Assembly (NCBI GenBank): GCA_021399445.1 | Contig: JAJTUQ010000013.1 | Location: forward strand, 295,125 to 359,124 | Length of the DNA stretch: 64,000 bases | Direction: 5' to 3' | From: Xylogone sp. PMI_703 | Taxonomy: Eukaryota > Ascomycota > Leotiomycetes | Shown here: piece by piece, positions 12,750 through 41,146 of the stretch | How positions within the stretch are numbered: the stretch's first letter is position 1 | Layout: every line of letters begins with the position of its first letter | Notes under the pieces: generated by a model | Databases searched by the model: none | Told to the model about the DNA's origin: nothing | Seen by the model: the letters and a program-made list of their open reading frames with translations, nothing else | Made by a program: the position numbers and the translations under genes

Positions 12750-13559
12750 CTACATCCAATGCTTTGCAAATATATTTACTGCATATTTAGAGCCTTTAGA
12801 TAAAGGAAGTCCGCCATGTCGAGCTTTCTCGTTTACTGATCCATTGATATGAGTATTCAACCAAAATAGAGCATTTCCCTGGACGGGCTTGAACGCTAGG
12901 CCTTTGCCACTAGCTGTTGCTGGAAATCGACTGTCGTTACTAAACTGTGTCGGAAGAGGATCTAGGAATGGGAAGTACGTCTCTCCTCCTTCACATTCCG
13001 ACTCCAGATAAATGAACATTGTACTGTTTTTGTTAAACCGTCTTCCGTTCGAGTCATTGAATCCTATGTATTCTGGATTGGGATCGTAATGGACGTTCAG
13101 TTTATTTCCGGGTTCGTATTTTACAAACCAAGGTGCGTCGTAATCCCCAGGGTTTAAAAATCCCAAAAACTGAAGCGTGCGCTGGCCAATACAATCGACT
13201 ACCTTATCTTCTTTAGGAAGGTCGGCGGACTGAGGAGAATATTTTTCAACTTTGCCAACGATTCTGAATCCACTGAAAAATTTTGGCCTTTAAGCATCAA
13301 CATGAATGTTGCGTAGTCAAGAGCGAGAGTATTACCCTATGTCCACTAAATATTTCGACTCTTCATCAGATATGAAGTTATTGACATATATAACGAGCGG
13401 ATCGAGACTCAATAGCTGTGTTGTGTATGAATGATCAGGGCATGTTGACGTTAGAGTGTTTGAAATTTGAAGCGCGAGCCTGTCCGGACTCAGAATGTAA
13501 TTCCGGTGAAATAAAAGCGCCGCAACCCCGAGTCCGAGTCCAGTAACTATCTGTTTCAA
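12750..13559 (-). CDS. 2-oxoglutarate/Fe(II) oxygenase, prolyl 4-hydroxylase-like, membrane anchored
   Basis: Two exons, 13559-13336 and 13272-12750, with a 63-base intron, give 248 residues. An N-terminal hydrophobic segment (about residues 6-22) should anchor it in the ER/Golgi membrane with the catalytic part lumenal. The jelly-roll domain shows the iron triad as H136-Y-D138 and H227, with K237 as the probable 2-oxoglutarate salt-bridge residue, in the usual spacing of P4H-type enzymes. The family hydroxylates Pro or other unactivated carbons in peptides. The gene is divergent from a UstYa-family gene across a shared 767-bp promoter that contains two copies of the cluster motif. A role in hydroxylating the RiPP is inferred from that setting only. 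Confidence 0.8.
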
Positions 13560-14326
13560 CTGCCAATTAAATGTCAGCGAGTAATTTTAACGCGCAATGA
13601 ATAATCAAGCCAAGAGGGTGACCATATCCAGTCGTCGCCGTTATGCCGAATCCATGAACCCCTAAGGCAGAGGGCTCCCCAACACGGCCCCAAATCAGTA
13701 GAAATCGACCAGTGACTTCAATCTACAAGAGTCATAGCTATGGAGGGTCAAGTAATTATTCAAAGAGAATCAGAGATTAACATAGGACTTACCATTTTCT
13801 TGTTTTTCGAACCAGAAATTTTAACGAAGTGAATGGGCGGGTTATTCTTCCTGTACATATGCTTTGTTGGACCTTGATGGTTGTCGAAGGTCGAATCTTA
13901 TGCAACAACGCAAAGCAAGAACAGTACGCAGGTGGCTGGAAAACTCTTCTCGCCTCGCCTTGCTCATTTCTCTGATGAGTAAGACTTTTCTTCGACTTGA
14001 AAAGCTAGGTAGTCTTATCTCTCGTCAGCTTTTCGGATTTCAGACTGTGCGCTGGGCAGGGCGAGGCGAGCGGAGCCCCCGATCTGAATTGGCCCAGCGT
14101 GGCAGGAAGGCGAGACGATGAAGAGCTGCCGAGGCCCTACGGTAGATGTTGTCTCCGGTATCCGCCATCATAATTGACACAGCAACCACATGAACCCGTG
14201 CACGGTACCCATCACCTAATCCAGTGAGCTATTAAACGAATCCTTATTGTGCTCGTTATTTGACGTCTATTACCTCACATAACCATTTCTAAGGGAGAGG
14301 AAATTATCCAGTCAATTGTGTGAACC
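13560..14326. promoter_or_regulatory. Bidirectional promoter with GGCGAGGCGAG motifs
   Basis: This intergenic region separates the divergent 2OG oxygenase and first UstYa gene. It carries CTCGCCTCGCCTTG at 13949-13962 and CAGGGCGAGGCGAG at 14057-14070, one on each strand, plus a weaker AAGGCGAGACGA at 14107-14118. The same motif occurs at 19608-19624 and twice at 24197-24227. I see no TATA box I would rely on. A binding site for a cluster-specific regulator is inferred. Confidence 0.5.
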
Positions 14327-15254
14327 ATGTGGCAACAAGCTTGGTCTGTTTCTTTCTGGATTCCGTACATTAAACTCGAACCTGAACATCTATCTGACGG
14401 AGAGGACGAAGATGGACCACAATCACGTATCTTCAAACCTAGCCGCATAGCGATACTGAAGTGGTTTATTTTTTTTTTTTGCACAGCGGTTTTCTCATTT
14501 GCCATCTTCAAATCCCGCTCTTTGCCCAGAAGGAGCTTGGCCGGTAAGGCTAATACCGTAATATCAGATAGAGACGCGCATGTCTGACTCATGCTGCCTC
14601 TTGGTTAGATCTATCTGAAAGTGTTACTTTTAACCCTGCGACGGAGTTTGAAGTTCCTCCTGGAGGCCCTTCTTCTAAGTGGGAAAGTCTTATGCCAGGT
14701 GCGAACCTCCGTTGAACGTTTATGACACTCCTGATTCTCAATTACTTACAGCTGGAGGCGGGTTCGTCAATATTTTGGACCTTGAGTCTTTTTGGCTCCT
14801 AGAATCACCTAAAACAAATGAAAAATTAAAACTAGAACCTGGTGAATATTGCATCTCAGTATTTCACCAGCTGCACTGTCTCGTGAGTGTATACGTCTAA
14901 TGCCAGTCAAAATTCTAACATTTTATGTAGGCTTCGTTAAGAGTTGCATTCGCAAAGTTGGAGGGATCGGCAAACGATTCCTTCGAGAACAAGTTATCAC
15001 AATCTGGAATTGACCATCTTGTGCATGTGAATCACTGCTTTGACTACCTACGCCAAGTAAATGCCCAAACCACAAATGCTCTGGAGATGTTGTCACTAAT
15101 CATGTAGGCCATTATGTGTTCAGGAGACATATCGCTGGAGTCTGTTCGGAATGGAAGCGTTGATGGATGGAATACCAAACATCAGTGTCGAGATTATGAA
15201 GCTATTAAAGAATTTGCAACACGCCGGGCTGATGGCGCGACTGGTATTGTTTAA
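14327..15254 (+). CDS. UstYa-family (DUF3328) oxidative enzyme, first copy
   Basis: Five exons, 14327-14543, 14609-14698, 14752-14882, 14931-15056 and 15108-15254, all with GT..AG borders, encode 236 residues. A single membrane span lies at about residues 44-61, as in UstYa/UstYb proteins. Both diagnostic motifs are complete: H141-Q-L-H144-C145 and H178-V-N-H181-C182 followed by FDYLRQ. After them come GW and QCRDY, which are also typical. Known members act in the secretory route on RiPP precursors, making Tyr-linked ether macrocycles in dikaritins, or act as hydroxylases or halogenases. The gene is divergent from the 2OG oxygenase. I see no defect. Confidence 0.88.
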
Positions 15255-15558
15255 TGATTCTGTCGAATACAAGCTAAGGTATGGTAGAAGGAGTACACTG
15301 AAGTGTAGCTGATTGACTATCCTAATGGAGACTCTTCCATACATTTATAGAGCAAAACATGATTCTAGGACTTTCTACAATCTATTTGATAGTGACGTGC
15401 AGCTTGGAAATTAATTGGTTGATTGATACTGTTTAACGTCTGAGTTGCTCTTATAGCCTCCGAAATCGAAGATAGGACGCCAGGAGCTCGCTCCTGGAAG
15501 CAGAGGTCAAAGTCCTGGTAAATACATAGTCGTTCGGCTTACACAGCACTCACCACCT
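15255..15558. other. Spacer, no gene
   Basis: Non-coding 3' side of the UstYa gene up to a MITE. No motif found. Confidence 0.4.
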
Positions 15559-15842
15559 TAACGTAATTCCCGGCTTTATCGGACACCCTGTTGTACCGGA
15601 CACTGAAATCTACCGCAAAATTGACAAAATCATTTCTTTAATATCTCAACAAATATATATAATTTTGACTCTAATTTATAACTCTATAATTATATATTCA
15701 ATTATATATAATATATTAGAAACTTTGTTAAGTATCAGGCATTGTGGTTGTTGAGATTCTAAGAGGGCGATTTTGTTCAATTTTGCAGTAAATTTCAGTG
15801 TCCGGTACAACAGGGTGTCCGATAAAGCCGGGAATTACGTTA
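15559..15842. mobile_element. 284-bp MITE with about 90-bp inverted repeats and TA ends
   Basis: The element starts TAACGTAATTCCCGG and ends with its exact complement. The two arms match over roughly 90 bases with a handful of C/T differences, around a short AT-rich centre. The TA at each end fits Tc1/mariner-type insertion. A one-ended relative of the same terminus starts at 30221. Confidence 0.85.
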
Positions 15843-16387
15843 TGACCTCTTAGTCATGTGACCTCAGAGTCGTCACAATTCCGACCTTTAAAATCTATAT
15901 TCAATGTTGAGGTTTGAAAATGGGCCCAAAGAGAAACGCAGGGACAGATACAGAACCACTTAATTGCTCTTAGAGTCTACAGCTACAATTGATTCTATAT
16001 GCAGAGGTTGTACGGTTGTACAGCTGTACAGACCAATATTTATCCTTCAGAACAATAGCTCGTGTCATACATATAGGCTCATATTAGAGTGGGTCAGCAC
16101 GTGGGGATTCGGGTAAAATCTATTATTCTATTGTGATTACTTCCGTAGAAAGTGACACCGGGCAAATTACGTAATCAAAGTAAAGCGATTTTATTGGTTC
16201 ACGTCGTAGATCTATTCCCTAAAATGGCATATTACGTAATCTAAATAAAGCGATTGATTGGTTCGTACATCAAGGCAATCATGCCCACCCCGATCAACGA
16301 GCTCTACCCCTTAATAAGGGGCTACTAATACATACCGTACAACTCCAACTATTACACCTCAATACCAACCATACAATACTCTACAAT
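15843..16387. other. 5' region of a degraded Helitron-type element
   Basis: No gene. Two short repeats (ATTACGTAATC followed by AAAGCGATT at about 16165 and 16227) precede a zinc-finger ORF. Similar TTACGTAAT sequence lies upstream of the related gene at 52362. This is probably the 5' part of a non-autonomous Helitron relative. Confidence 0.4.
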
Positions 16388-17545
16388 ATGGCCCGCTCCG
16401 TTCAATCAAAGCAAGAAAAATACTTCTGGGTAGGAACCAAATCCCCTATTCTAGAGCGATTACGATGTGCGACCTGTAAGAGATTCCAGCCAATCACAGC
16501 ATACCCTTTCCGTAAAGATGGCTTCCATACTACCTCCTGTCATGCCTGTCATATTAGACTAAAAGATCGATATTTAGAGCGAAAGGGCCAGCCAAATATG
16601 GTCTCAGAGGAAGGCAAAGCACGTCAACGACAGAGGATTATAAGGGAATCTAAGAAAGCTTCCAAAGCTCAACAGGCTCAATTCGCACAACTGTGCTGGA
16701 ATCAGAGCAAGCGTATTGAATACAGGTCTTTATATATAAAGTCAATCGATCAAGGTAAGTGTATACAATACGGTCCGTAGACCATTTCTAATATAATTAT
16801 AGGTAAACGCGCATGGGAGAAAAGGCAGAGCACTTTAGAGCACTGGCACTGGCCTGAATGGGACGGGGAGGCTGACAATTCAAGGCTCTCCAGTATGCCA
16901 ATTACCTCAAAAGATCAATGGACCACTCTCTGGATTACACAAGCTTGCTGGCTATATTTGAAGGCTAGGGAAAGAGGGGACCGGTCAGCTTGGTTTGAGT
17001 GGGAAAAGCTCTATAAGGCGTATATTTGAGCTACAGCCAAAAGGCCGGATTGGAAGCTTATAAATAAGCCTGTAGGATGGGAGGTTGTAGAGCGTTATAT
17101 TGGCCAGGGGGGTCTCGAAGAGGTTATACAAAAGTTAATAAAGCTGGAAGAGCCTGAACCGGGAGGGCCAGAGCCTGAGGTAGAGCCTGGGGAGCATACG
17201 GGGGAGTATACGGAGGAGCCTATAGGCTAGGGAGAGCTAGAGCCTGAGGAGCATATAAAGAAGTCTACAGGTCAAGAGAAAGACCAATATTGCTCTGGCT
17301 GTAAGCAATTCAAGCCAACAACTCAATTTAACGGCCGGTTGACCTGTATGGCCTGTAGGAAGCGCAATACGAAGGCCAACCACCGTAGGAGGCAAAAGAC
17401 CATACAGGCCACCAGGGAGCAGGCTGAAATGCATTTAGATAATTGGGTTGCGATAGCCGGGGAAAGGGAGCTTATACCTCTCCGGAAACTTTGGTTTAAG
17501 CCTTTAACTGTAGACGACTATTTGAATAGAGATATATCAAGTTAA
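16388..17545 (+). pseudogene. Helitron-associated zinc-finger protein with two in-frame stops
   Basis: Exon 1 is 16388-16754 and, after a 48-base intron, one frame runs 16803-17545. It is broken by TGA at 17027-17029 and TAG at 17228-17230, both explainable by C-to-T or G-to-A changes. Two CxxC..CxxC blocks are visible: CATCKRF..CHACH near the start and CSGCKQF..CMACRK near the end. The same CxxCKxFxP block opens the Helitron gene at 52362. The middle is Trp-rich and then Glu/Pro-rich with short repeats. No Rep or helicase domain is present, so this looks like a dead, non-autonomous Helitron passenger gene. DNA binding is inferred from the fingers. Confidence 0.6.
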
Positions 17546-17688
17546 ATATCAATACAGACCGTACAGACCATACAGACCGTACAGAGCTATAATCAAGACT
17601 CAGCAATAGGAGGCTACTGGTCGGAGGTCAGGAGCCTAAATATATATATATACGGATGGAGCATTATATTCAATTCAGAGTATTAGCA

Positions 17689-17751
17689 CGTGACCCTAAG
17701 GGGTGCGAAGCACCCCCTCCTTTGAGCGTAGCGAGAAGCAAGCGCAGCTTG
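17689..17751 (+). repeat. Helitron 3' terminus with stacked hairpins
   Basis: After CACGTGACCCTAAG come GGGGTGCGAAGCACCCC (17700-17716), an imperfect hairpin, and the terminal hairpin CAAGCGCAGCTTG (17739-17751), followed by T. The same architecture in reverse lies at 53523-53574, where the end is fixed by comparison with an uninterrupted copy. This defines the 3' end of the element containing the 16.4-kb pseudogene. Confidence 0.6.
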
Positions 17752-17937
17752 TGTGGTAGAACCATGACTTCAAAATATTGCAACATTTTGTGTTCTAGTA
17801 ATAATTTGTATGCGACTAAGAGGACTTATGATGCATAGACGTCCCGTGTAGATTTAGCTGAGCCCTAATTATACCTACTTATACTGTTAAAGGGGTTTAT
17901 ATTAAATCTAAGAAGGTTGGTATAATTATACCACGTA

Positions 17938-19392
17938 CTAAGTTATGAGCAACAGCCTCAGTTCTATCCACTTAGCTAACTTAACGGAAGGAACATCTAC
18001 CAGCCTCCAAAATATGTCTGCGATCCACAGGACAAGAGGTGCTAGCACAATAAATCCTAAACTTAAACCTAGAGCAAACTGCGTTCTCGTCCCATTTCCG
18101 GTAACATGCCACATTGTTAGAATAATTGTGTCCCGAAAAACTATGACAAAGGGGCTGTGGACAATATATAGCGAGAATGATATTTGACCAAGGTATTGCA
18201 ACGGCAAAGCCGTAAAGATTGTCTTCAAACAGGGAATGTTGTTAATCGACAAAAGTATCCCAACTGCCCCAACTGCCAGATGGTAGCGAAACTGAGGGAC
18301 CTTGGAGCTTAACCAGATAAACCCCGGAGTCCTGTGGCCATCATTATCTGGGAATGAGGCTAGGTATAGGCTGGATATAAGGCATGAACCCCAGAAGATC
18401 GTATGCGCGGATTTGGCAGCTACACTTTTGGCGGCTATTGATTCACGCATATATTGGTGCTGAAGAAGGCTCAGTTCCGCAAGAAACAAGCCCCCAAAAA
18501 ACAGTCCGACTTCCCATTCGCCCCAAAGAAGACAGCATGGGAAGAGTAAAAATGACACCATCAGACGAAAGATCGCAACTTTTGAGGAGAGTCCCATAAG
18601 CGTCAGGAAAATCACCATAGAAGATTGGAACTCTTTGGGCAGAGTCCACAGATGAGGGCCGTATCTAAACTGAGGAGTAAACGTTGACACGAAAGGGTTG
18701 ACTAGTTCCGTGAAACATGAGCGTATAAAATCGTACACTTGATTCCAGAAGGTAGGTAAGTATTCAGGGAGAAGACCAGAATGCTGCGGAGGGAGAGAGT
18801 GCATGCGGATGCCGATCATGAACATGAATGACGACACAATTGGCGGAAGAAAGAGTCCAATTCCTCGACGGAAAACGTATGAACTCAAAGTTGCAGAAGC
18901 CTCCGAATACTGCTCTTCCTGAAAAAGCTTTAACGGCTTTAGAGACAAGGCAAATCCCGAAATGGCGAAGAATATTGCAACCATGGGCGAGCCTGCGAAT
19001 CCGAGACGTATAATGGGAAGTTGAATAGGCCACTGATTTTCGCCTTGCCCAAAGCCATTGTCTAGGGGTAAATATCCATTTCCATAATGGTATACGAAGA
19101 CAACAAATGCAGCACATCCTCTCATTCCATCTAGGTACGCTGTGGATCGAAGCTTCTTCGATTTCAACTCCTCTCTGTACGACTGAATGGTGAAAGATGG
19201 TAGGACGAAGCTGGCAGCTCGCCAGAAGAAGTTTAATATGTTCGGAATTTGGGGGAGTTGTAAACCGGCTTGTCGTGAGTTAGTTTGTTGTGAAGGAATT
19301 GAAACATATCGAGACAGATGCCATATCTGTTGTAGAAAATGCATCGTTCGACTGACTGATGCGAATGATATAGTTATGATGGGTTGGTTCAA
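17938..19392 (-). CDS. Acyltransferase-3 family membrane protein, first copy
   Basis: An uninterrupted frame of 484 codons. The family signature AYLDGMRGCAAFVVFVYHYG lies about residues 84-103 and includes the His expected to take part in acyl transfer. About ten hydrophobic segments follow, and LYIVHSPFVIV lies near the C-terminus, as usual in the OafA/acyltransferase-3 family. Members move acetyl or longer acyl groups onto sugars, peptides or natural products at membranes. A second copy lies at 38505-39980, and the two share layout (RGxxxFLP, LWTLPxEF). Its promoter side has the cluster motif at 19608-19624. Acylation of the RiPP product is inferred from location. A transport or cell-wall role cannot be excluded. 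Confidence 0.82.
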   Translation of the reverse strand: MNQPIITISFASVSRTMHFLQQIWHLSRYVSIPSQQTNSRQAGLQLPQIPNILNFFWRAASFVLPSFTIQSYREELKSKKLRSTAYLDGMRGCAAFVVFVYHYGNGYLPLDNGFGQGENQWPIQLPIIRLGFAGSPMVAIFFAISGFALSLKPLKLFQEEQYSEASATLSSYVFRRGIGLFLPPIVSSFMFMIGIRMHSLPPQHSGLLPEYLPTFWNQVYDFIRSCFTELVNPFVSTFTPQFRYGPHLWTLPKEFQSSMVIFLTLMGLSSKVAIFRLMVSFLLFPCCLLWGEWEVGLFFGGLFLAELSLLQHQYMRESIAAKSVAAKSAHTIFWGSCLISSLYLASFPDNDGHRTPGFIWLSSKVPQFRYHLAVGAVGILLSINNIPCLKTIFTALPLQYLGQISFSLYIVHSPFVIVFRDTIILTMWHVTGNGTRTQFALGLSLGFIVLAPLVLWIADIFWRLVDVPSVKLAKWIELRLLLIT

Positions 19393-19607
19393 AAATTCAC
19401 AGCACGATCATTTCTAAAGGTATTCGCGGAGGATACACGTCAAGTTCTAGGCCACCGAACTGCCAACATGCTGAACCTAATAAGACGTCGCGACCTCACA
19501 GCAGAATTTTACTGCGCTCACGCATTCGTTGGCTGCTGGATAAGCAGTCTAATCAAACAGCTAACTAACCCAGAGAAAAGCCTTGAAGGATGGCGCAGTT
19601 AGACTTT

Positions 19608-19624
19608 TACCCGCCTCGCCTTTC
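19608..19624 (-). promoter_or_regulatory. Cluster motif upstream of acyltransferase gene
   Basis: The minus-strand reading is GGAAAGGCGAGGCGGGT, sharing GAAAGGCGAGGCG with the copy at 24198. It lies about 220 bases upstream of the first acyltransferase start codon. Confidence 0.45.
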
Positions 19625-20177
19625 CTTGTTTTATCCAAGCTTACGGCCGTAACAATTACGGTGGCATTATTGTACAATTGCCACAAAGCAGAAGGAAGAA
19701 GAAAAGTGGCCCATATATGTTAACTATACGTTAGAAGAATTACGTTATGTCAAAATCAAATAATGTGAGTGATTTGCGGCTATTCACTTGTTACAATTCC
19801 GTCGGAAACCTCAGAACCGCAGCTTAGAAAGTTCTTTACTTTCCTAATCATAACAGTCCTGGGATGCGATATTAGTCCCAGGACCCAGGCTTTCCCAAGA
19901 CCCGTTTGTGTCCTGGGACGCTCGTGTGACATGACTCATCAGAGTCACTCAGATCAGGACGATGAGCTAAGTGGGCCATATGATGCAACAGGAATGCAAA
20001 ACGCACTTTTCATATAAGTTCTGCAGTTAGCAGTAGGTAAAAACCTTGTGTTAAACTTAATGCATTTTTTGAGTTATAAGTTATGAAGTAGTTTTCCTAC
20101 TCACAATATGCTTGTATTGCCCTCTACTAAAATCGGTCGGCCAGACTTCCCATCAGCAAGCAATTACTGATAATTTT
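19625..20177. repeat. Spacer with GTCCTGGGA palindromic trio
   Basis: No gene. GTCCTGGGA at 19856-19864, its complement TCCCAGGAC at 19876-19884 and a third copy at 19910-19918 can form alternative hairpins. Their role is unknown. Confidence 0.35.
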
Positions 20178-22829: not shown

Positions 22830-23179
22830 TGAAAGGAAGTCTAGCGTTTATTGTGCATTTATAATACATAAAGTTACCTACACCGTTCGTAATGACACAA
22901 CCATGACAAAGCCGAATCAAAGCCAGCACTGTGGAGCAGGATCTGAATGGAGCCCGGTAGAGCCTTGAGGCTTACAGTCACGCCATGAATTAGGATCGAG
23001 GAAAGGAAAAATAAGACGAAACAAGAAATACTGTAAAAAGTTATATCAGAAGGATAGGGATAATTATAGCGCCCCTTGTTAAAGGTGCTCTAAGATGTAT
23101 TACAACGGCTGCCGATTTTTCATTTAGTTTCCGCCTTTTTCTCTGCTGGCGAAGTATATCAACCTCACCGCGGAGTGAA
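22830..23179. other. Spacer, no gene
   Basis: Non-coding between the hAT relic and the second UstYa gene. Nothing recognised. Confidence 0.4.
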
Positions 23180-24124
23180 TCAAGCATCAGGCAGCGATGT
23201 CGCATGCTGTGCAGCCCATGTTTTCAACGCCTCATAATTTCGACACACGTGAAGTTGTCCGTTTGGTACTCCTGGCCATCCAGGCTCAAGTGTTATTAGT
23301 GTTGGATCTAAGAAGCATTTTAAAGCCTGTCGCAAAGCGTCTACGCAGTGGAGAATGTGATCCCATTGAATGGGATTTGATATCATCATTGTACCATTGA
23401 GTTGGTATATTGTGTCTCGTACAACATCCTGACAATAATCGTCAGCGATTTGTCGAATCATCAAGAGAAGCAGTATTAGTTTAAGTACCATGCAATGAAG
23501 TTGGTGAAATCCAGCAAGAATGTACACCATATCGGAAGAATTTGAAGCCGTCATAGACGAAGGAATACTATACTGCTTTGCAAAAGATTGTGTAATTTTT
23601 ATGTAGCCGCCGCCAGCTAAATCACTAATTAGTAAACTGGCAGTATGTAGTAAGACTAAAAATCTAGAGGAGGTTTTACCAGGAAATATGTCACGCCATT
23701 TGTCGTCTGCGTATCTCGAGCCATCTGTCTCGTATTCAGTGAGATTATTCCACTCATAATCAAAAGGTTGTAGTATTTTGGACCGGGAGCCAACTGTATT
23801 CATCAGTGTTGGATCATTAATATTGTTGAAAAACGGAGAAATACAGTAGTCCTTCTCCATGACGCAACTGTTATTGGGGGTGCTCCGTAAATACCACCCT
23901 AAATTTGAGCTGAGAAGGCACACAAGCAAAATCAAAGCGAAATATGTCTGAAAGCTGGAGGCTGTCGAATTGCACCTTCTTGGGACATCATACAACTCGT
24001 CTTCACTATCCGACAGAGAAGTTAGTAGCTTTTCTGAGGCTTCATCCATCTCCCGTAAGTTGCTGGTGTTTGTCGAACAGCGAGGGGGGAAGAAATGTAA
24101 TAGCACACGCGAACCGCGGAACAT
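23180..24124 (-). CDS. UstYa-family (DUF3328) oxidative enzyme, second copy
   Basis: The reading frame is open across the whole span, but two in-frame introns are evident, 23679-23617 and 23488-23429. This leaves three exons and about 273 residues if the first Met is used. MDEASEKLL, 25 codons later, is the more typical UstYa start. A membrane span lies at about residues 58-76. The first motif is GFHQLHCM, right at an exon end, and the second is HILHCVDALRQALKC. Both HxxHC sets are intact. The gene is divergent from the tyrosinase across only 194 bases that hold two cluster motifs. Expected role: oxidation of the RiPP precursor in the secretory pathway, possibly paired with the other UstYa protein, as UstYa and UstYb act in ustiloxin biosynthesis. 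Confidence 0.87.
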   Translation of the reverse strand: MFRGSRVLLHFFPPRCSTNTSNLREMDEASEKLLTSLSDSEDELYDVPRRCNSTASSFQTYFALILLVCLLSSNLGWYLRSTPNNSCVMEKDYCISPFFNNINDPTLMNTVGSRSKILQPFDYEWNNLTEYETDGSRYADDKWRDIFPGKTSSRFLVLLHTASLLISDLAGGGYIKITQSFAKQYSIPSSMTASNSSDMVYILAGFHQLHCMVLKLILLLLMIRQIADDYCQDVVRDTIYQLNGTMMISNPIQWDHILHCVDALRQALKCFLDPTLITLEPGWPGVPNGQLHVCRNYEALKTWAAQHATSLPDA

Positions 24125-24318
24125 GCCGTTTGCTCATGCCCATGATGTCGAATACATAAGCAGCCGCGAAGGCTTGTAAGACTGCAGATCGCAGTGGAAA
24201 GGCGAGGCGAGTGCAAGGCGAGGCGAGATGGAGCTTGGCGACCTATGATCTGCTGGAGCTAAGGGGGGAAAAGTTGCTATGAAATGCGTAGATAGCTAGG
24301 TAGGCGTCCATACGAGTT
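24125..24318. promoter_or_regulatory. Bidirectional promoter with two GGCGAGGCGAG motifs
   Basis: GAAAGGCGAGGCGAG (24197-24211) and CAAGGCGAGGCGAG (24214-24227) lie in tandem, 3 bases apart, between the divergent UstYa-2 and tyrosinase genes. The tandem, same-strand layout suggests cooperative binding of a regulator. That is inference. Confidence 0.55.
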
Positions 24319-25959
24319 TTGCTTGAATATATGACAAAGATTTTCAACCACATCATGGTTTGCGTACACCTGGCTCAAAGTCCTATCATTGGACTCTTCG
24401 CAATTCTTGCACTCTTCTTTTGCGTTGCGAGTTTGATTGCACCTTTTTCCCAAAAGTTACACACTAAGATTCCAACGGTTTGGCTTTCTCAAGCGACAGG
24501 TCGTGCGGCCGTTGTCGTCTCTTCGGACAGCCCTCATACGTCCTATCGGAAAATAGCTACGCGTCATGATTTTGAAAATTTCAGACATTCTGGGCCACCA
24601 TTTGACCTGTATATTCAGTGCCAACAGCAATTCATGAGTACGGATGAAGGAGACATACAGTCGTATTATCAAGTTGCGAGTAATCTGATTTTATTCTCAT
24701 TGATTCCAAACCCATCTAACACCGTCAAGGACTTCACGGCTCATCGGATCGTTTATGGAGAGAGGCCGAAGATACCTCGGTACATAAAAAACTTGGAGTA
24801 CATGGCAGCATACTCTTTCCTATATGGCATAGGCCATATTTAGCCTTATATGAGGTGGGAATAATATATTCACCTGGTTCTATTTACAGCTGACAGCGGC
24901 GCAGCAAATTTTGAACAAATGTGCTCGCTCCCTAGCGGTACGCTACCCAGACGCCGAAAGACATGTTTATGTAAAAGCGGCGGATGATCTAAGATTACCC
25001 TATTGGGATTGTCTGTAAAGATATAAAGTTCTTAAATACTGATGCTAATAAAGATAGGGGCCGCAAAACCACAACTTCCTCAATTTGTCACTGAAGAATA
25101 CTGCGAAATCCAAACACCGGTCGGCCGTAAGATGTTGATAAATCCTCTTCATCAATACAATTTTCCACCTGGAGCAAAGGAATTTAATGAGCAAGTCGAA
25201 AATTCCGGCGTTCCGAGCCCTGGGATCCTTGATCACACTGTTAGAAAGCCGAATAGCAACTGGATTAGCCAACCGGACCGAATAAATATGATATTATCTG
25301 AAATCCGGTAAGTGGGCTGGGTTTGCTTAATTTGAGAGTTTAGCAAACTTATCGATCTATCACAGCTTGAGAAGCCGTACATTAAACCTGTACTCGAATT
25401 GCAATTACAGCTGGTTCTCTACCATCGCATACTGGCGGGAGTCACCTACTGGAGATTCATTAGAGAACATACATAACTTCATTCATGATGCCATTGGTGG
25501 TTAGAATTGGCCTTTGAAACGAACTGGCGAAAAACACCTAACACATTACAGGACACATGAACTCTTCTCTTGCCGCCTTCGACCCACTCTTCTGGCTACA
25601 TCATGCGTAAGCAACGCTCAATTAGAATTTCTTGTGTAAAGACTTAATGTGTAAGCAGCAACCTGGACAGATTATTTGCTCTTTGGCAAGCGGTCTGTCC
25701 CGGCAGTTTCGTTAATCAAACCCTCCCCTTGCACATCAACGATTCGATTGCCATGATCACAGAGGAGACACCACTTAGCCCATTTATACATAGAAATGGC
25801 ATTCCATACACTGCGACTTCTACCCGTAATATCGAAAACTTCAACTACACATACGCTGAATTGCTTTGGCAAAGTTACAATAATACCATGAAACTTGAGG
25901 ATGTTGCAAGGCATGTTAGAGCAGCATTAGATAAACTGTATGGGGACTATAAAGTGTAA
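24319..25959 (+). CDS. Type-3 copper tyrosinase, UstQ-like
   Basis: Seven exons (24319-24679, 24730-24854, 24890-25010, 25058-25307, 25366-25499, 25552-25606, 25659-25959) rebuild one 448-residue protein, and every junction keeps frame. A membrane segment lies about residues 21-43. Copper site A is H123, H145 and H154 (LHG, VHGS, IWHRPYLALYE). Copper site B is H322, H326 and H347/H348 (NIHNFIHDAIGGHM, FWLHHANLDR). The family oxidises phenols. In dikaritin clusters the tyrosinase (UstQ, PhomQ) is linked to Tyr oxidation during macrocycle formation. Here the gene shares a promoter with UstYa-2. No inactivating change was seen. Confidence 0.9.
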
Positions 25960-27364: not shown

Positions 27365-27365
27365 A

Positions 27366-30187: not shown

Positions 30188-30220
30188 ACAGTCTAGATAT
30201 TGGTAATACAAGTAAAGGGG

Positions 30221-30300
30221 TAACGTAATTCCCGGTGTGACCGGCCACTTGAACTTACGGCAAAATTGAGCAAAATCACCCCCTAGCAATATCAACAACT
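30221..30300 (+). repeat. Truncated relative of the 15.6-kb MITE
   Basis: TAACGTAATTCCCGG followed by CGGCAAAATTGAGCAAAATC and ATCTCAACAA-like sequence corresponds to the left arm at 15559. No matching right arm lies nearby. Confidence 0.55.
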
Positions 30301-30435
30301 ATACAGTCTCACAAGAAAAGTATATAGCTAATCAAGCCGACTTATCTATGAATATATTCTCCTCTTTTTCTTTCGATATCTAGAATAATATTAATCATGA
30401 TTTTAGGGCGTATAATCGTACAGATATGTTAATAT

Positions 30436-30911: not shown

Positions 30912-31590
30912 ACGCTCAAATGACCAGGCATTTTCCTAGGTATGCCGGCGAGAGATTCTAGGACATTGATTTAATCGGGTGGCTCAAAACGACTATACGT
31001 TCGAACGCGAAAAACGAGTTACCGTGAGGCCGGTAACTTACTAACATTTAGCTGTTTCAAGACGAGAGCATCTTGACAACATACTTATTAAGCAACATAA
31101 TTTCATGGCCTCCGCTTGATGACACTGCGTCATTAGATCCATTGGTTTGAAGTGGCTGGTGCGCAAATATATTGCCGTAACGGGAAGGGCCCGCAAAGTG
31201 TAACAATGCGGTGGGTCTCTCCCCGTGGTTGGCGCCGCGACTTGGCTGATCTGCAAACTTGTTTTGACACCATTGGAAAATCTGCCTACGGGCAGTGAGT
31301 AAATTTTTACGCTTGGTACCCCCACAAGTCACTATCGGCAACCAAACCCTAGATCGTCCATCTCAAGGAGATAATCCTGTACAGGAGGCTTTGCCTTGCA
31401 GCACATGTGGTAAAGGATTCGCGAGACGTAGTGGTCTGGCACGACACGGTAACTTACTCAACTTGTTAATAATGTCTACTGACAGATACTGTGGGATCAT
31501 CCAATGTGACTCTTAAGAATGTTTTAAGTTACTCTTAACCTCTGAAGATAGTTTGAAGTCACTCTTTGTCCTAAAGGCAGAACATTTTAA
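30912..31590. other. Spacer with a C2H2 zinc-finger scrap
   Basis: At 31398-31450 the plus strand encodes CSTCGKGFARRSGLARH, a clear single C2H2 finger, followed by a GT..AG intron-like stretch and then no continued frame. It could be the start of the DUF3435 pseudogene region or a separate relic. Confidence 0.4.
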
Positions 31591-31599
31591 GTCTTTGAT

Positions 31600-33500: not shown

Positions 33501-34160
33501 TTTGTAACTCGGGGAAGGAAACGGTTTTCTCGTAGACGAGATCTTTAACTAGGATAGGATTAAATTTAGCCAGTTAAGTTTTCGAAATCCTTAAATGTCA
33601 TTAAATCAACCTAAAATATCATTTGATAAAAGAATCTTAAATCCTATAACGCTCGTGGCTAAGCGTCACGTACTATATAGTAACACGCTAAAGCGTCTTT
33701 ACTGTACGTTGTGTAAGGCTGTATAAATGCTAAATTTCAGATGTTAAATTTCAGATACCACCAAAAAGCAAAATAAAAACGTAGTTACTTAGGCTTTGTC
33801 TTTGCATCGTGTGACGTACCTGTTGATGCTTTGAAAGTAAGGATAAACAAAGTAGAATATTACATCCTTTTACAGAAAAGATCAGTGTAAAATTGAGTGC
33901 GTCAAAACTACTTCTTTCATGAATAGGCTTATTTTGTAATTGTGGCATTATTTGCCAAACATCAAGAGTACTTGCTTTACTTTGATGTGCACGTAAACAG
34001 TAAACAGCTCATTCAGTGCGTCTATCGGTCTTTCAGCCTCAATGTTCACGAGAAACCAGTGCTGGTTTGAGGCTGAGGCTGAGGCTGAGACAAGAGTGCC
34101 AGGGGGTACGTATACTTCTTCGAGACGTGCTCTTGCAAAATCGTCATGCATGAGCATCTA

Positions 34161-34208
<48 letters not shown>

Positions 34209-34236
34209 ATCTTTGAGAGAGCGGTCAGAAATATGA
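33501..34236. repeat. Spacer with a (TAG)16 microsatellite
   Basis: 34161-34208 is sixteen uninterrupted TAG triplets. Upstream, 33590-33950 is AT-rich. A minus-strand frame at 33948-34157 ends within the region but shows no known domain and is not supported as a gene. Confidence 0.6.
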
Positions 34237-34451
34237 ATGAAGCAGATTCCTCCGGGTTCTCAGAACTCAGGGCATGATGGGCCTGCTTCAGTCAAGCGAT
34301 TGTGCACAGAAGCTGCATCCCAAACTTGCTGTGGTCGGGTCGACCTTCCTGTGCCATGCGCGTGTAGTCCGGCTTCATCAGTTCCCCCTCAAAGACTCCT
34401 TGTTGCATATTTAGGATTGCATATTATCCTCCTAACTTCGGATCCACTTCG

Positions 34452-34853
34452 ATGTGCCAGTATTCCGATATTGCACTGCGCATTCTTATCCGCAACACCT
34501 ATAGGAAAGGCGAGCCGAGCAACAAGCTTCTCGATGAAACTAGGAAGGAATTTAGCCGCGAGCATATCCTTAATTTCTACTGGCAGTTAACACCTAATTC
34601 CTCTTCATACAATCAGCTCTATGAAGATCCACGCTGGAACGACAGTAAAATTAGTAATATTCTACTAACGAATTTCACTCCGATTGTGGATAAGCATCGG
34701 CCGAAATGGGAAATTCCTGTAGTGGAAAAGAGTCATCGTCAAGGGTGCGGGAATAATACTTACCTAGGTGACGCGTCCGACATGCACGATTCCCTGCCGC
34801 CCGGGTTATGCCAGATTATACGCGTATTGGGGACTCGTGTGCTGTGGGGATGA
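34452..34853 (+). CDS. Unidentified cluster ORF, probably multi-exon or frameshifted
   Basis: A frame of 133 codons with Trp/Tyr/Asn-rich, globular composition and no membrane span. Just downstream the next frame stays open (34768-34980) and gives a sensible continuation (LPPGYARLYAYWGLV), which suggests a splice or a frameshift near 34795. It contains GGAAAGGCGAGCCGAG at 34504-34519, similar to the cluster motif but probably coding here. I cannot match it to a family. Location between the tyrosinase and the other cluster genes makes a pathway role possible but unsupported. Confidence 0.35.
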   Translation: MCQYSDIALRILIRNTYRKGEPSNKLLDETRKEFSREHILNFYWQLTPNSSSYNQLYEDPRWNDSKISNILLTNFTPIVDKHRPKWEIPVVEKSHRQGCGNNTYLGDASDMHDSLPPGLCQIIRVLGTRVLWG

Positions 34854-35130
34854 TGGTTTTCGGCACGAACATGTGATGTGGCTGGTTCTGCGTTTGACAG
34901 CATATGCCGAATCGCAGAATCAAGGCCCCTGTCACAAACCTGTACCTAAGACTCTATCGGCAGCTCCGTGTTCCTCCTAATAGCTAGACGTTATACGTAG
35001 TAATTAGTTCGAGGGGTAAGACCCACCGTTAATACTTGCCTGCTGTAGGACTGACACATCGGAAATGCACTCAGTTTTTAATAGTAAACTTTTAATTAGG
35101 AATCAAATAAAGCGATTTTAATCCGCGACG

Positions 35131-36948
35131 TTGTGGGAGTCTGGGTATCGACTCTTCAGTGATTGCGTGGATGTTATTGGTTTCTTGTCCTCAGATTGGA
35201 TCAATACTTTCTTATCCTCTTCGCTGATGGAAATGGAGTCACTTCTGCAAAAGCATAGCTCGATTGAGATTGCGCTCTTGATTGAGGCATTGCGACTGAT
35301 TCTCGACAAAAATGACTCTCACGAGATATACAAGCTATCACGCCGGTTAAGACCGTATCGAATTAAACTTGAACCATCCTCTTATGATGGAAGTACTTTG
35401 TCAAGGGCAATATTAGTACTGGAAGATGAAGATGAATCAACAAATAGATCCTACAATGGTCTCGGTGGTAATGCATTTTTTGCAGACAGAGATCCGAGGA
35501 TTGATGCTAGACAAGAAAGCGGTATCTTATCCCCTCAATCAGAAAACGTAGGGCAGGACATAGCACCAGGATATAGTTACGAATCAGAAGATTTTGTCCA
35601 TTTGAATTCTCAAATAGTGCAAATCTTGAACACCCACTATTTTCTAAGAACTTTGTTGACATATCGTACAGGAATTTATCACTCTCCGCCCTTCAAACGA
35701 TACATCTCAAACACCAGATATAGGATACAGCATATCATCAATTCAAAATTACCAAGATCGTATGGTCCCTCAAGCAACTATTTGCTAATTTACCAACCTA
35801 AGTTTCTGTAGCAGACATATCAAATACTGCGTGGAGCCTCCAGTTTTGTAATGTGTTGCTCATAGTATTGGGTGACAGAGTTTTGCTTGACTAACAGTAT
35901 AATAGGTGAATACCTTGGACAAACTTCTTGGAACGATGCCACCCTTAGCACACTTACTTCTTCAACTGTCCCTGATGTGGGCACAGGTTCAGACATAATG
36001 GTTTCGGGATCAGAGAGATACGCTGTGCCCAACACTGGACATAGAATACCTGATAACACAAATGAGATAATTTTACCACGGCCACTACTCTCGCAACATA
36101 TACCAAACACATTGTCGTTGACAGATGGGTTTCAGTTCACTTCAAAAATAAATGAGATGTTGGGACAACGGGTAGAAGACGTACTCCCCAAGACTATGAT
36201 TTCAACATTAAGAGCTGCGACTCGGGATGTCATTCGAAGTGATACAAAGGAATTTTTAGCAACAAATCTCCCGCGATGGAAGCAATATGGCTTATGGTAT
36301 CATGCAGAAGTATCAAACCCAACAGTAAAGATGTCTAGTTATAAGGCATTGGAAAGCGCATACTCTTGCGTCTGTCAGTTGGAAATGTAGATGGAAGATG
36401 ACCCTATCAGAAAGCGTATAACCTTGACTCTTCTCTATTTAAATTATGAAAAAAACATGTGCAGAATGGAAAGCTGAACATTCTAATGACTTTTGTGATG
36501 GTGGGGTTATTGGCAGGGGTCATGCCACATTTATGATTGACAAGATCTTGGAGAATATTCACGGGGACTGGAATATTTGCAATAGTACGAGAAAGTCGGA
36601 GTTGCGGGCAAAATTTCATAACCAAAAACGACACGGAAAGAGATGGTCAATAGTACTGACTGCTCTTGGGCACAGTATACTATTTCTCAGCTCTCCAGAC
36701 TTAGTTAGAATATTGTATGGTTTGTGATTAAATATGATATATATGTACTGACTGTTTTCAGGGGAAATACTCTTTTTACTTTAGAGATGCTTAAAGCTAT
36801 CTCACATACCATCAAGACTTACCAAAATGATGTTATGATGGTTTTAAGGCTTCTAAATCCGGTTGCTGAAAGTTTATATCATAATAGTCAAGATTGTTTA
36901 GACATAAAATATATTTTAGCAGAGCTTGGCTGTCAAGGCGTAGTGTAG
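35131..36948 (+). CDS. Unidentified multi-exon protein inside the cluster
   Basis: Four frames follow one another: 35131-35811, about 35866-36390, 36446-36727 and 36760-36948. GT..AG pairs lie between several of them, for example an acceptor at 35864-35865 and another before 36771, so a single spliced gene of about 550-580 residues is likely. I could not make every junction fit. The N-terminal part is acidic with Ser-rich loops. The C-terminal part has the block KRHGKRWSIVLTALGHSILF and a helical end. There is no signal peptide and no clear membrane helix apart from that block. I do not recognise the family. It lies between the tyrosinase side and the precursor side of the cluster, so it could be a regulator or an unknown tailoring protein. 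Confidence 0.5.
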
Positions 36949-37563
36949 CATACAGTGAAGGGGGATCAGGCGATGGTTGATATAGGGCTTACAGTGTAGG
37001 ACTAGTGATGCTATAGTATATTCAGTATAACTAGAATGGTATGGTAAATACAAACTGATCTCCGAATCCTTTAATATAGGCGACAATCAGAGGTTTTGTA
37101 AATTTTTAATAACTATAAAAACGTTAACACCCTTTAATTACTTATTACGTTGAAACGGGGTTCTTTTACTAGAATAATATACATTTTTAAAATTATTCCT
37201 ATTTACAAGAACTATAAGTAAAATATAATGCTCTACGTTTCACTTTAATACAAATATGTTATACGGGGTGTAATAACAGTGCTGCGTTATTCCTTAAGAT
37301 CGTAGTATGAAAGGGGCCAGATTGCCTGCCGAGAAGGCATATTCTATTTCAGTCTGCTACTGGACACGCTGACTGCCAGCCTGACCACCATGAATTTTAA
37401 CTAGAGGTAAACGAACTCTTACATCATGCTTCACGGTTGAGAGATGAATTATGACTAGCTATACTCTCTAATTTTTCCCTCTAAACTAACCTAATCTATA
37501 AATTGTCTATTTAACAGAAGACTTTGCTGGATAGGAATTGACTCAAACGAAACAGAGACGACT
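36949..37563. other. AT-rich spacer
   Basis: No coding frame is supported. An upstream exon of the UstYa-like pseudogene could start near 37515, but it is not convincing. Confidence 0.35.
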
Positions 37564-38029
37564 ATGGTATGGAACATATTGGCTGATATTACGCCATGAG
37601 GATTCATTACTATTCGAAACCCAATTTCGTTTGGTCTTGAGAATGGAGTACCAACGGATGATCCTGATGCATTTGAATATGGAGTTGGCCTAGCTCATCA
37701 ACTTCACTGTTTGGTAGATTTTGTTTTAAAACAAATCACGGTGACCCACCTCGTCAACTAATAAGTTGCTGTGCCAAGGGTGCGATACATTCACGAACAT
37801 ATTATCTTTCATCGATGCCAGACTTAAGTCACGATGAAAAGGCCATGATACGTCATCTGAGACACTGTTTTGATTATATACGCCAAGCACTACCCTTGAA
37901 GGTCCCAGAAAAACCGACCCATCACACCGTGAAATTGATGGCAACGTTCCTAGGCTACGTAAAGACCCGGCACTACTTGAACAATTTGCAAAACACCATG
38001 GAACTGATTGGGACTGGTTATTTAAATAG
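37564..38029 (+). pseudogene. Third UstYa-family gene, broken
   Basis: The first part (37564-37713) reads toward GVGLAHQLHCL and is interrupted by a TGA at 37597-37599 where the family has Gly/Arg-type residues (a CGA-to-TGA change fits). A 65-base intron (37714-37778) joins in frame to DLSHDEKAMIRHLRHCFDYI, so both HxxHC motifs survive. The end (RKDPALLEQFAKHHGTDWDW) lies in another frame, with no splice that restores it. No N-terminal membrane exon was found. I call this a decayed copy. A sequencing error or an unusual intron is the alternative. Confidence 0.6.
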
Positions 38030-38504
38030 AGAATAAGATGACTTAAATCTTCCTCACGAGTTTAATGGTTTGATAGACTTACTTTTGTAGACTTCTACAT
38101 TTATTCAGACTAATCTTAGAGTCTTTTAGTTTAGTTGATACTGAATAAAGACAATCTAAGAGGAGATGTGGCATCCTTACCAATAATCTTTTGGCCTTAG
38201 TCTCCACATCCGTCTAAATATAATTTTGCCAAAAAGTTAATTTTGAACCAAAATATATATCTAATAATAATGAAATAGAATTGACTCGTCAAGCGCACAA
38301 GATCATTAGGGCTAAACACGAATAATTAAGGGTCTGAATGGCTTATCTCCAAGGTTACTTCAGTAAACACGATATTTTATAAGACGTATGATTTTACCTG
38401 CTAAACTAATAAGCCCTTTGTTTATTACATGACACTGTAAAACGGACATCAACAAAAGTGGACTTAATTACATTTACAGGTAAGATATAGAGAAAGACTT
38501 AGTT
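38030..38504. other. AT-rich 3' spacer
   Basis: Non-coding between two convergent genes. Nothing recognised. Confidence 0.45.
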
Positions 38505-39980
38505 TTAGCTCATAATCGGTGGTGTTTGCACACTCATTTGTCGTTTTGAAAAGCTCCACCTTTCAATGCTTTTTGCAAGCCGAATACATGGCTCATCGAC
38601 AAATCTACAAAACAAGTCCGCCGACCAGAGAACGCATGGTAAGATGGACAAAAGACCTAGAGTGAAGCCAAGTTGCTTTTGCATCTCGGTGTCTTGGCCT
38701 GTAATCGTCCAGAAAGCTGGAACAAGTGCATAACCCCACGTTTGAAGAATTGGAACGTGGACAATGTACAAAGCATACGAGATGCGACCAAGATATCTGC
38801 ATACAGAAGTTGCAAGTATACTTTGCAGAGTTCTTTCGTGGCAAATTGCGAACAAGATTTGGGTTGCGCCAATCGACTGCCATAGACGAGCACTGTCACA
38901 AAGGCGAGTCATCCAAACATAACCTAGCGTTGAATTGCCATTAAGATCTGGATATGAAGCGATGTATAAGCCAGTACTGAATACCATCCATAAAGAAGTG
39001 CGAACAACAAAGCTATTTATCTTCCGTGATGATCTTGTGAGGACGAAGCTTGCGGTGCACGAGCCTGCTAAAAAGAGGAAAACCTCCCATCTCGATATAT
39101 ATAAGGCGTAAGAAGATAATGCAGCGAAGATAAGGAAACGAGCGGGCTTTGAGAGCTTCGCACAGCCAATTAATGCCAAAAAGAGAAACATTGAACTCCA
39201 AAATTCAACCGGGAGAGTCCAAAATTGGGGCCCATAGTTGAGAGCAACAGATTGCTTGTTGAAATAGAACCATGTTTCTGGGTAGAGCAACCTCGACAAT
39301 ATAAAGTTTGTCCAATCCTGGAGTTGCGCAAAAGCTGTGAGAAGACGTTGAGGACGATCAGAAACATATTCTGGCGGTATACGAAATCCTCTCACGCTGC
39401 TTTCAAAGGGGATATTGTAGCAACCAAGATAAGCTCCTATCATAGAGATGAACGAAGCAATTAACGCTGGAAGAAACAATCGAATACCACGGCGAAATAT
39501 GCTTGATATCATAATGTTTGCCAGTTCACTCCAATTCATATTATCAATACTTCGCAAAGGCTTGAGCGAGAGAGCGAACCCAGAGATGGCGAAGAAGACG
39601 GCTACCATGGCACTTCCGCCGTACAGTAATCGGACGATTGGTAGCTGGAAAAATCCGTGATTGCTGTCGGCCCCATATCCATATATGATTCCAGGCTGAT
39701 AAGGAAGGGCAAAATGCTCAAAAAATACGACGAGCGATGCTATGCCTCGCAAGCCATTGATAAAGGTAAAGTCTTCTTCGCTTGAAAATAAGGCTCGGGG
39801 TTCTAGTCGCATGTGCGATGAAGCTTGCACTGTCCGGGTTTTTAGAGGACTTGGGAACAATCTGAGCACGATTTGTTTGACCAAATGCCAGACATTTTCT
39901 CTCCAACCCTCGTTCAACTTTCTATTCCATGGAGATGGAACGCTGCATTCTTGAGCAGGAAATTCGTCATTCTCAGCCAT
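38505..39980 (-). CDS. Acyltransferase-3 family membrane protein, second copy
   Basis: An intact frame of 491 codons. The signature FINGLRGIASLVVFFEHFA lies about residues 73-91, with the His typical of the family. It is followed by SAMVAVFFAISGFALSLKPL, about ten membrane segments and LYIVHVPIL near the C-terminus. It resembles the copy at 17938-19392 in length and in many motifs (RRGIRLFLP, FWTLPVEF), so the two are probably paralogues. A substrate cannot be read from the sequence. Position 670 bases upstream of, and divergent from, the RiPP precursor suggests co-expression. Acylation of the peptide product or export-linked modification is inferred. Confidence 0.85.
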   Translation of the reverse strand: MAENDEFPAQECSVPSPWNRKLNEGWRENVWHLVKQIVLRLFPSPLKTRTVQASSHMRLEPRALFSSEEDFTFINGLRGIASLVVFFEHFALPYQPGIIYGYGADSNHGFFQLPIVRLLYGGSAMVAVFFAISGFALSLKPLRSIDNMNWSELANIMISSIFRRGIRLFLPALIASFISMIGAYLGCYNIPFESSVRGFRIPPEYVSDRPQRLLTAFAQLQDWTNFILSRLLYPETWFYFNKQSVALNYGPQFWTLPVEFWSSMFLFLALIGCAKLSKPARFLIFAALSSYALYISRWEVFLFLAGSCTASFVLTRSSRKINSFVVRTSLWMVFSTGLYIASYPDLNGNSTLGYVWMTRLCDSARLWQSIGATQILFAICHERTLQSILATSVCRYLGRISYALYIVHVPILQTWGYALVPAFWTITGQDTEMQKQLGFTLGLLSILPCVLWSADLFCRFVDEPCIRLAKSIERWSFSKRQMSVQTPPIMS

Positions 39981-40651
39981 TGCGTTGATGATTAGGTTTC
40001 TCTGCTTAAAGGAGTGCGATTAGTACAGCACATAAGTTGGCTGATAAGCAATTAAAGAAGCAATCGTATGTTCATTTGCTCATGGGTTCCTGCAAAATTG
40101 AGGCTTGATAGGCTAGTTCCAGAGCTCAAGCGCCACATCTTGCCTCACTGCGCGAGGCAAGTCGAGACGAAAATAAGCTCACGTCTCAGAGGAGTAAAGC
40201 ATACCTCTGCAAAGCGAAGCTTGAGCGGATTCGCTCGAACAAATAGGTAAAGCGATGCGAGGAGGAGTATCAGGAACGTCTAGGCTCGGTAACGTCTTGC
40301 CTTGCCGCGCGGTTGAATGCTCGAGACAGTCATCTTTATGCGTTACGCTCATTTTCACCACAACTAGGTTAGTGGCATGTACATGTGCTCGGTGGCAACT
40401 CTCTTGAGCTCACGCAGCGGTCAACCCATCGAGGTACTATGGGAGAATGCTTCTGGTGTGGATCTTAGTCGTCCTGACTTACCTGTACCTTCCAAGTATT
40501 ATCATAGCTCTGGTATGCGGACTAAGCGAAGAATATTATAATAAGACCTCTTCTGTTCTCTCGTCTAGTGTTATAGCATATTAGTTTTTGGTCATCTACG
40601 AGTCACATTTGAAAATAATCAAAGTTATTGAAAAGTCAGAAATCAAGCAAC
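39981..40651. promoter_or_regulatory. Divergent promoter of acyltransferase-2 and the RiPP precursor
   Basis: It holds a hairpin/palindrome, CTTGCCTC (40139-40146) and GAGGCAAG (40154-40161) with a 7-base spacer, and CTTGCCTTGCC at 40296-40306. Both resemble the cluster motif CTCGCCTCGCC with C-to-T changes. The precursor side (40540-40650) is AT-rich with no exact motif copy. Confidence 0.4.
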
Positions 40652-41146
40652 ATGAAGTTCACATACACAGTAGCATTCTGTGCTACCCTGCTCGGTGTCA
40701 TCAGCAGCGCAACTCCCGTTGATGACACTGGGATGCTTGCATCAGATCTCAACAAGAGGGGGTATGTGACAGTCGACACTGGGAGGAGGGCCGCTGATGA
40801 CACTGGGATGCTTGCATCAGATCTCAACAAGAGGGGGTATGTGACAGTCGACACTGGGAGGAGGGCCGCTGATGACACTGGGATGCTTGCATCAGATCTC
40901 AACAAGAGGGGGTATGTGACAGTCGACACTGGGAGGAGGGCCGCTGATGACACTGGGATGCTTGCATCAGATCTCAACAAGAGGGGGTATGTGACAGTCG
41001 ACACTGGGAGGAGGGCCGCTGATGACACTGGGACGCTTGCATCAGACCTCAACAAGAGAGAGTATGTGCCAGTCAAACAAGGTATGTTTTCTGAAGACGT
41101 AAAATAGTGAGCTTCTCTAATATACTAAATAGGAAAGATTGCATGA
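40652..41146 (+). CDS. Repeat RiPP precursor (dikaritin-like), secreted, Kex2-processed
   Basis: Exon 1 is 40652-41081 and exon 2 41133-41146, joined over a 51-base intron (GTATGT..TACTAAATAG), giving 147 residues. A signal peptide occupies about residues 1-20. Five tandem 25-residue repeats follow, the first four with identical cores. Each has an acidic spacer (AADDTGMLASDLN), a KR site, the 8-residue core GYVTVDTG and an RR site. The fifth core is EYVPVKQG and the protein ends GKIA. The signal peptide, repeated Tyr-containing cores and dibasic sites are the hallmark of ustiloxin/phomopsin-type precursors. The Tyr-Val start recalls phomopsin-type cores, but the sequence is otherwise different. 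The final product and any bioactivity are not predictable. Confidence 0.85.

Follow-up and report, generated by a model that had tools for sequence, protein, structure and literature searches.

How could an acyl group be supplied to a fungal peptide that matures in the endoplasmic reticulum (ER) and the Golgi, when acyl-CoA is cytosolic? This question is raised by two acyltransferase family 3 (AT3) membrane proteins encoded within a candidate cluster of Xylogone sp. PMI_703 for a ribosomally synthesized and post-translationally modified peptide (RiPP) of the dikaritin type. The window, i.e. the whole 64-kb stretch that was analysed, covers bases 295125-359124 of contig C5 in an assembly of 50.1 Mb and 25 contigs. 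Within 28.4 kb (12750..41146 of the window), it holds seven intact-looking genes and one broken one that encode, from left to right, a prolyl 4-hydroxylase (P4H)-like 2-oxoglutarate (2OG) oxygenase (-), UstYa-1 (+), AT3-1 (-), UstYa-2 (-), a tyrosinase (+), a broken UstYa (+), AT3-2 (-) and a repeat precursor (+). The best explanation, which we regard as reasonably probable, is a RiPP cluster of the dikaritin type to which a step of transmembrane acylation has been added. It is very likely that the locus is a RiPP cluster with UstYa and tyrosinase, and likely that the AT3 and 2OG oxygenase genes belong to the pathway; acylation of the peptide by AT3 is put forward tentatively. The cluster is coherent and probably co-regulated, with an unusual acyl-transfer arm, and partly eroded.

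Precursor and oxidative enzymes

The precursor (40652..41146, plus strand) is a Kex2-processed repeat protein (KEP) of 147 aa, encoded by two exons (40652-41081 and 41133-41146) with a 51-nt intron between them. By eye, a signal-peptide-like hydrophobic N-terminus is followed by five units, with nine dibasic sites in total. A preliminary description of this DNA had reported five KR/RR-bounded repeats behind a signal peptide. This holds for four identical KR-GYVTVDTG-RR units but not for the fifth, KR-EYVPVKQGKIA, which is divergent (18 of 75 nt differ) and has no dibasic site after it. Tandem Repeats Finder gave a period of 75, 4.8 copies and a score of 676. Since units 1-4 are identical over 75/75 nt, silent positions included, they appear to have been recently expanded or gene-converted, and the repeat number may also reflect an assembly error. 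GYVTVDTG is the core that we propose; a longer one, from KR to KR, may also be considered. The precursor frame is single-copy in the 50.1-Mb genome. Its 151-aa unspliced form had no match at E <= 10 in a set of 5.8 billion proteins, in which four candidates shared words with it. This result says little about rarity, because the set includes AT3-2 of this contig (P0121) yet missed the window's own precursor; repeat proteins of this kind can be missing from it. Pfam matches of the whole precursor (HTH_46 and nine others) were rejected as repeat artefacts, no stretch passing alone.

Two intact UstYa genes and a broken one had been announced, and all three were recovered. UstYa-1 (14327..15254, plus strand; five exons, 236 aa) matches PF11807 with an E-value of 9.1e-27, and UstYa-2 (23180..24049, minus strand), whose two introns keep the frame open, with 2.9e-20 on the unspliced frame. 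Each carries two HXXHC motifs (HQLHC and HVNHC in UstYa-1, HQLHC and HILHC in UstYa-2), a pair suggested to be a reliable mark of RiPP-related DUF3328 proteins (PMC12048977). No solved structure matches UstYa-1 by sequence. The third UstYa (about 37560..38036, plus strand) is interrupted by an in-frame stop and a frame change, so that its two HXXHC motifs lie in different frames, and its piece stays under the Pfam cut-off (PF11807 E 1.1e-4, 22.6 of 25 bits).

The tyrosinase gene (24331..25959, plus strand) is intact, as previously described: its seven exons encode 444 aa without a stop, PF00264 is matched at E 6.2e-39 and the di-copper motifs are complete by eye. No second domain was found in it. 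Among its six donors, the third (GTCTGT) is unusual; we selected it since PYWDW, a motif of the tyrosinase family, is restored in this way. Its relatives are distant, none exceeding 40% identity among the best 120 of 527 matches. A grouping with short Hypoxylon tyrosinases was not supported by a tree of 121 rows (the query and 120 listed matches of 527), in which the query forms a long branch (1.46) and is in no starred group. A 472-aa protein model of Diaporthe amygdali (P0057) combines a tyrosinase domain and a partial UstYa domain in one chain, a hint of linkage between these two functions.

Furthermore, the gene at the left end encodes a P4H-like 2OG/Fe(II) oxygenase on the minus strand (12750-13289 is the catalytic exon; further exons upstream of it reach about 13860, with an uncertain 5' exon structure). 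This earlier assignment is borne out by PF13640 (E 1.5e-8) and by the nearest solved structures, which are prolyl 4-hydroxylases (PDB 2jig, E 7.5e-10). The iron ligands of the HxD...H pattern (HYD and RHGG) and a downstream 2OG-binding Lys were recognized by eye.

The main features of dikaritins are found here, since a precursor, UstYa proteins and a tyrosinase are present; known dikaritins need just a precursor, UstYa and often a tyrosinase (PMC7329392). Five dikaritins only had been reported by 2022 (PMC10512285), and 1758 of the 7878 KEPs surveyed have a UstYa gene close by (PMC7329392). The comparison with ustiloxin and phomopsin is based on descriptions (PMC7329392, PMC12048977, PMC6941272) and not on sequence. 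Like these systems, the locus has a Kex2-repeat precursor with a signal peptide, UstYa/DUF3328 proteins, a tyrosinase and a core beginning with Tyr-Val (YVIG and YVIP there; YVTV here, after Gly). Unlike them, it has a P4H-like oxygenase and two AT3, whereas S41 peptidase, methyltransferase and P450 were not found here by the scans run. The asperipin-2a and U. virens ustiloxin clusters are also devoid of S41 peptidase. Asperipin-2a shares a KEP and UstYa with our locus and does not need a peptidase gene (PMC12048977); it differs by having one UstYa, a reductase and a multidrug transporter, with no AT3 named in the available part of that source, instead of the two intact UstYa and the tyrosinase found here.

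A promoter word shared by the genes

On reading the four promoter regions that serve all seven genes, we saw GCGAGGCGAG in tandem. The bidirectional promoter of the 2OG oxygenase and UstYa-1 (13870..14326) carries two exact copies and three matches with at most one mismatch, a number reached by 0/3000 random segments. The same counts, also reached by 0/3000, were obtained for the bidirectional promoter of UstYa-2 and the tyrosinase (24061..24330). Degenerate copies occur in the bidirectional promoter of AT3-2 and the precursor (39981..40651), with two matches at up to one mismatch (0/3000). The weakest copy lies upstream of AT3-1 (19346..19950), where the single match with at most one mismatch was equalled by 37/3000 segments. 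When the segments were matched for GC and two mismatches allowed, the corresponding values were 0/869 for 2OG/UstYa-1, 72/2068 for AT3-1, 0/440 for UstYa-2/tyrosinase and 0/1997 for AT3-2/precursor. The background of the promoter tests was 255130 bases, i.e. the rest of the window and the fetched loci.

Moreover, 4 of the 64 exact copies of GCGAGGCGAG in the genome lie in the window, two in each of two promoters, versus 0.08 expected for the window as a whole. The degenerate form GCRAGGCRAG has 30 window matches with at most one mismatch versus 9.35 expected from shuffles, and 18 of them are in the four promoters (2003 bp). A de novo 9-mer test on the promoters was reached by 0/400 random sets. 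In the first promoter the word occurs twice, yet three unrelated 8-mers do likewise; the other promoters are therefore the fairer test. The promoter word is beyond chance. As a proxy and not a proof, it argues for one co-regulated cluster, and it provides a handle on the regulator and on the true cluster border. The preliminary proposal of a dikaritin-type cluster is thus supported by the KEP precursor, the UstYa proteins with two HXXHC motifs, the tyrosinase and this shared word. The undescribed product that was proposed along with it, and a single pathway for these genes, are inferences. As a general signal of UstYa clusters, the word was rejected: elsewhere in the genome it has 60 exact copies, and a single one of them has a UstYa gene within 5 kb.

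Acyltransferases beside UstYa genes

Two acyltransferase-3 proteins had been predicted, and both match PF01757. AT3-1 (17938..19344, minus strand; E 2.2e-21) has an intact DxxRx10H motif and AT3-2 (38505..39980, minus strand; E 8.6e-19) has NxxRx10H. Across the 43 rows of an alignment, R and H do not vary, and the position of the Asp falls outside the set with 90% conservation. A transmembrane helical fold with an acyl-CoA pore is predicted: the AT3-2 model has the fold of human HGSNAT, as shown by a second look with VIA. A plain Foldseek search with the AT3-2 model gave no match at E <= 0.001, and no solved structure matches AT3-2 by sequence. HGSNAT, of the TmAT superfamily, acetylates across the membrane; its acceptor is a lysosomal sugar and it has 11% identity to AT3-2. 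The relatives of AT3-2 are distant, with none above 50% identity among the best 120 of 181 apart from its own copy, P0121. P0148, named 'O-acetyltransferase PaAT-1' in its source, has 38% identity to AT3-2 over 84%. The product is a terpenoid for the fusicoccin cluster and a polyketide for the zaragozic acid cluster, whereas the neighbours of AT3 here point to a ribosomal peptide. The AT3 family is shared with both, through Orf9/PaAT-type proteins of fusicoccin and Clz18 of zaragozic acid (PMC12423673, PMC9409727). No AT3 in a dikaritin cluster is described in the titles or abstract openings of the publications listed, a part of those matched and a coverage that leaves most subscription literature outside.

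The genome harbors 108 UstYa exon matches, corresponding to about 80 genes at 49 loci (grouped by script), and nine AT3 matches. Three of the nine AT3 (AT3-1, C20:676281 and C1:6848746) lie less than 3 kb from a UstYa gene. AT3-2 is 14.7 kb from the nearest listed UstYa match, the broken UstYa copy being about 0.5 kb away, and the remaining five are at least 49 kb from any UstYa gene. AT3 and UstYa are linked beyond chance. Hence, the AT3 proteins, which the preliminary description had called unusual partners together with the 2OG oxygenase, are not a one-off, since AT3 also stands beside UstYa at two further loci in the genome. Of the nine genomic PF13640 matches, only that of the 2OG oxygenase here has a UstYa gene within 5 kb, and so the evidence for its partnership consists of position and the shared promoter. 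Tyrosinase has 13 exon matches at nine loci (merged by hand), and four of these loci are within 5 kb of UstYa genes.

Besides UstYa and AT3, the C20 locus (L030/L031, C20:667001-687000) encodes a PF03171 2OG oxygenase, a major facilitator superfamily (MFS) transporter and, by eye, an ATP-binding cassette (ABC) transporter. The C1 locus (L018-L020, C1:6843520-6865790) encodes UstYa, AT3, a kumamolisin-type prodomain, a GFA protein and a methyltransferase; an FAD-oxidase-like frame and a further UstYa-like frame, both without a Pfam match, were recognized there by eye. Neither Tandem Repeats Finder, on five stretches, nor a dibasic-repeat scan detected a repeat precursor at these two loci, and the AT3/UstYa linkage is therefore not limited to RiPPs with repeat precursors. 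In addition, a 788-aa protein model of Fusarium decemcellulare (P0129) contains both AT3 and UstYa domains, and could be either a genuine fusion or the joint annotation of two neighbouring genes. Lichen RiPP Clan R2 likewise has a UstYa-type gene beside acyl-transfer genes; these are GNAT acetyltransferases, no repeat precursor was found there and a tyrosinase is lacking (PMC12048977), in contrast to the AT3 and repeat precursor found here.

The proposed pathway would run as follows. The signal peptide likely takes the precursor into the ER, and the Golgi protease Kex2 would cut after KR and RR, releasing four GYVTVDTG and one EYVPVKQGKIA; the acidic spacer AADDTGMLASDLN would be lost. By analogy with ustiloxin and phomopsin, the two UstYa proteins and the tyrosinase would oxidize and cross-link the Tyr-containing core, and the P4H-like oxygenase could add a hydroxyl. 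One or both AT3 may then take an acyl group from acyl-CoA in the cytosol and transfer it across the membrane to the lumenal peptide, at a hydroxyl or an amine. A regulator binding the shared promoter word probably switches the genes on together. More broadly, UstYa and AT3 could be viewed as a recurrent fungal module in which UstYa oxidases shape a lumenal peptide and AT3 bring acyl groups across the membrane; here it would yield acylated dikaritins, with acylation at a hydroxyl made by the P4H-like enzyme. We offer this generalization as a conjecture that is somewhat doubtful. If it is true, the present cluster would be the first case with a ribosomal peptide that we know of.

Repeat precursors were also sought at the other UstYa loci. 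Among the 49 loci, nine were read with their surroundings, one more in part and eight as short pieces; four of the nine, the window's own included, have a dibasic-repeat precursor. The second precursor has 11 units KR-DFAEPLLGE.VS (L010:5722-6297 = C1:1010570-1011145), and about 4 kb from it lies a gene for a LanC-like protein (PF05147 E 4.9e-24; L011:2241-3392 = C1:1015022-1016173). Such an enzyme seems unusual in a fungal RiPP setting; none is named in titles or abstract openings among the publications listed, a part of those matched. Another precursor, with eight units QTTGDKSPKYEDYEV, belongs to a UstYa locus that also has two tyrosinase matches (L022:4499-5104 = C1:8103992-8104597), and a further one has units PQYRNADW-KR-E(A/P)E (L026:4045-4323, minus strand = C1:8783333-8783611).

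Competing explanations and surroundings of the cluster

Several observations weigh against a dikaritin-type cluster with an acylation step. Whereas Tyr opens the ustiloxin and phomopsin cores and Ile is their third residue (PMC7329392), the third residue here is Thr (Y-V-T-V) or, in the divergent unit, Pro. Published dikaritin criteria include a methyltransferase and a transporter (Ding et al., via PMC12048977), and neither was found by the Pfam scan, which covered 29 of the 53 open reading frames listed for the window and could be escaped by multi-exon genes. The S41 peptidase (PF03572) has five matches in the genome and none on this contig. As for a regulator, the scans run detected no transcription factor in the window; no Zn2Cys6 match lies there among the 150 scored of 740 candidates, the sole one listed on this contig being at C5:261712. 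AT3-2 has Asn in place of the motif Asp, with R and H kept. The promoter word was picked after inspection of all four promoters, which weakens the nominal probabilities, and its copy in the AT3-1 promoter is weak. Exact GCGAGGCGAG is not enriched genome-wide (64 copies vs 61 for the backward control), 60 of the 64 copies lie outside the window, and the degenerate GCRAGGCRAG is common throughout the genome (439 vs 185 for the control). Lastly, with one broken UstYa and a dispersed repeat among its genes, the pathway may be decaying.

Among the alternatives, the one that survives best, although we consider it unlikely, is a classical dikaritin cluster made of the precursor, UstYa and tyrosinase genes, to which AT3 and the 2OG oxygenase would be unrelated neighbours in a repeat-rich region. 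The small gene set that suffices in known dikaritins (PMC7329392) is consistent with it, as are the dispersed repeat between UstYa-1 and AT3-1, the transposons (Helitron and copia) flanking the cluster and the isolated case of PF13640 near UstYa. However, AT3-2 shares a promoter region carrying the word with the precursor, as the 2OG oxygenase does with UstYa-1, and AT3 is found again near UstYa elsewhere in the genome.

It is distinctly improbable that the cluster, once functional, is now dead or dying, having been broken by repeats and the loss of a UstYa, and gives no product. Seven genes are still open with their catalytic motifs present, the first four precursor units are identical and the promoter words have been kept, all of which speaks against this reading; in its favor are the broken third UstYa, the repeat inside the cluster, the Helitron and copia elements around it, the failure of the scans run to reveal a transporter or regulator in the window, and the common end of window and contig (base 359124 of C5). 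Very improbable is a linear secreted signalling peptide of the pheromone-like KEP type, with UstYa and tyrosinase serving another product: some KEPs are unmodified pheromones and 6120 of 7878 have no UstYa gene nearby, but there is a Tyr in the core, the precursor is tied to UstYa and tyrosinase by the promoter word, and UstYa neighbours were seen for only three fungal-pheromone KEPs (PMC7329392).

The dispersed repeat element (16200..17560, plus strand), which is not part of the pathway, has other copies or fragments elsewhere with 75-91% identity. Between the tyrosinase and the broken UstYa, the region 34360..36960 (plus strand) has single-copy DNA in which three frames are open (34368-34853, 35122-35811 and 35866-36390) and match nothing in Pfam; two degenerate promoter words occur there, at 34505 and 34510. 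No tandem TTAGGG array was found within the 64-kb window. To the left of the cluster, a Helitron-type helicase gene (5113-10189) has DUF6570, Helitron_like_N and PIF1 domains. To its right lies a Copia-type retrotransposon on the minus strand (46333-51208), with gag and Pol_BBD domains in 49289-51208 and a frame recognized by eye in 46333-49302. A second Helitron-type helicase gene (55791-59684) was assigned from its sequence alone, and repeated frames matching the OrsD-like PF12013 (59689-63760) are located close to the contig end.

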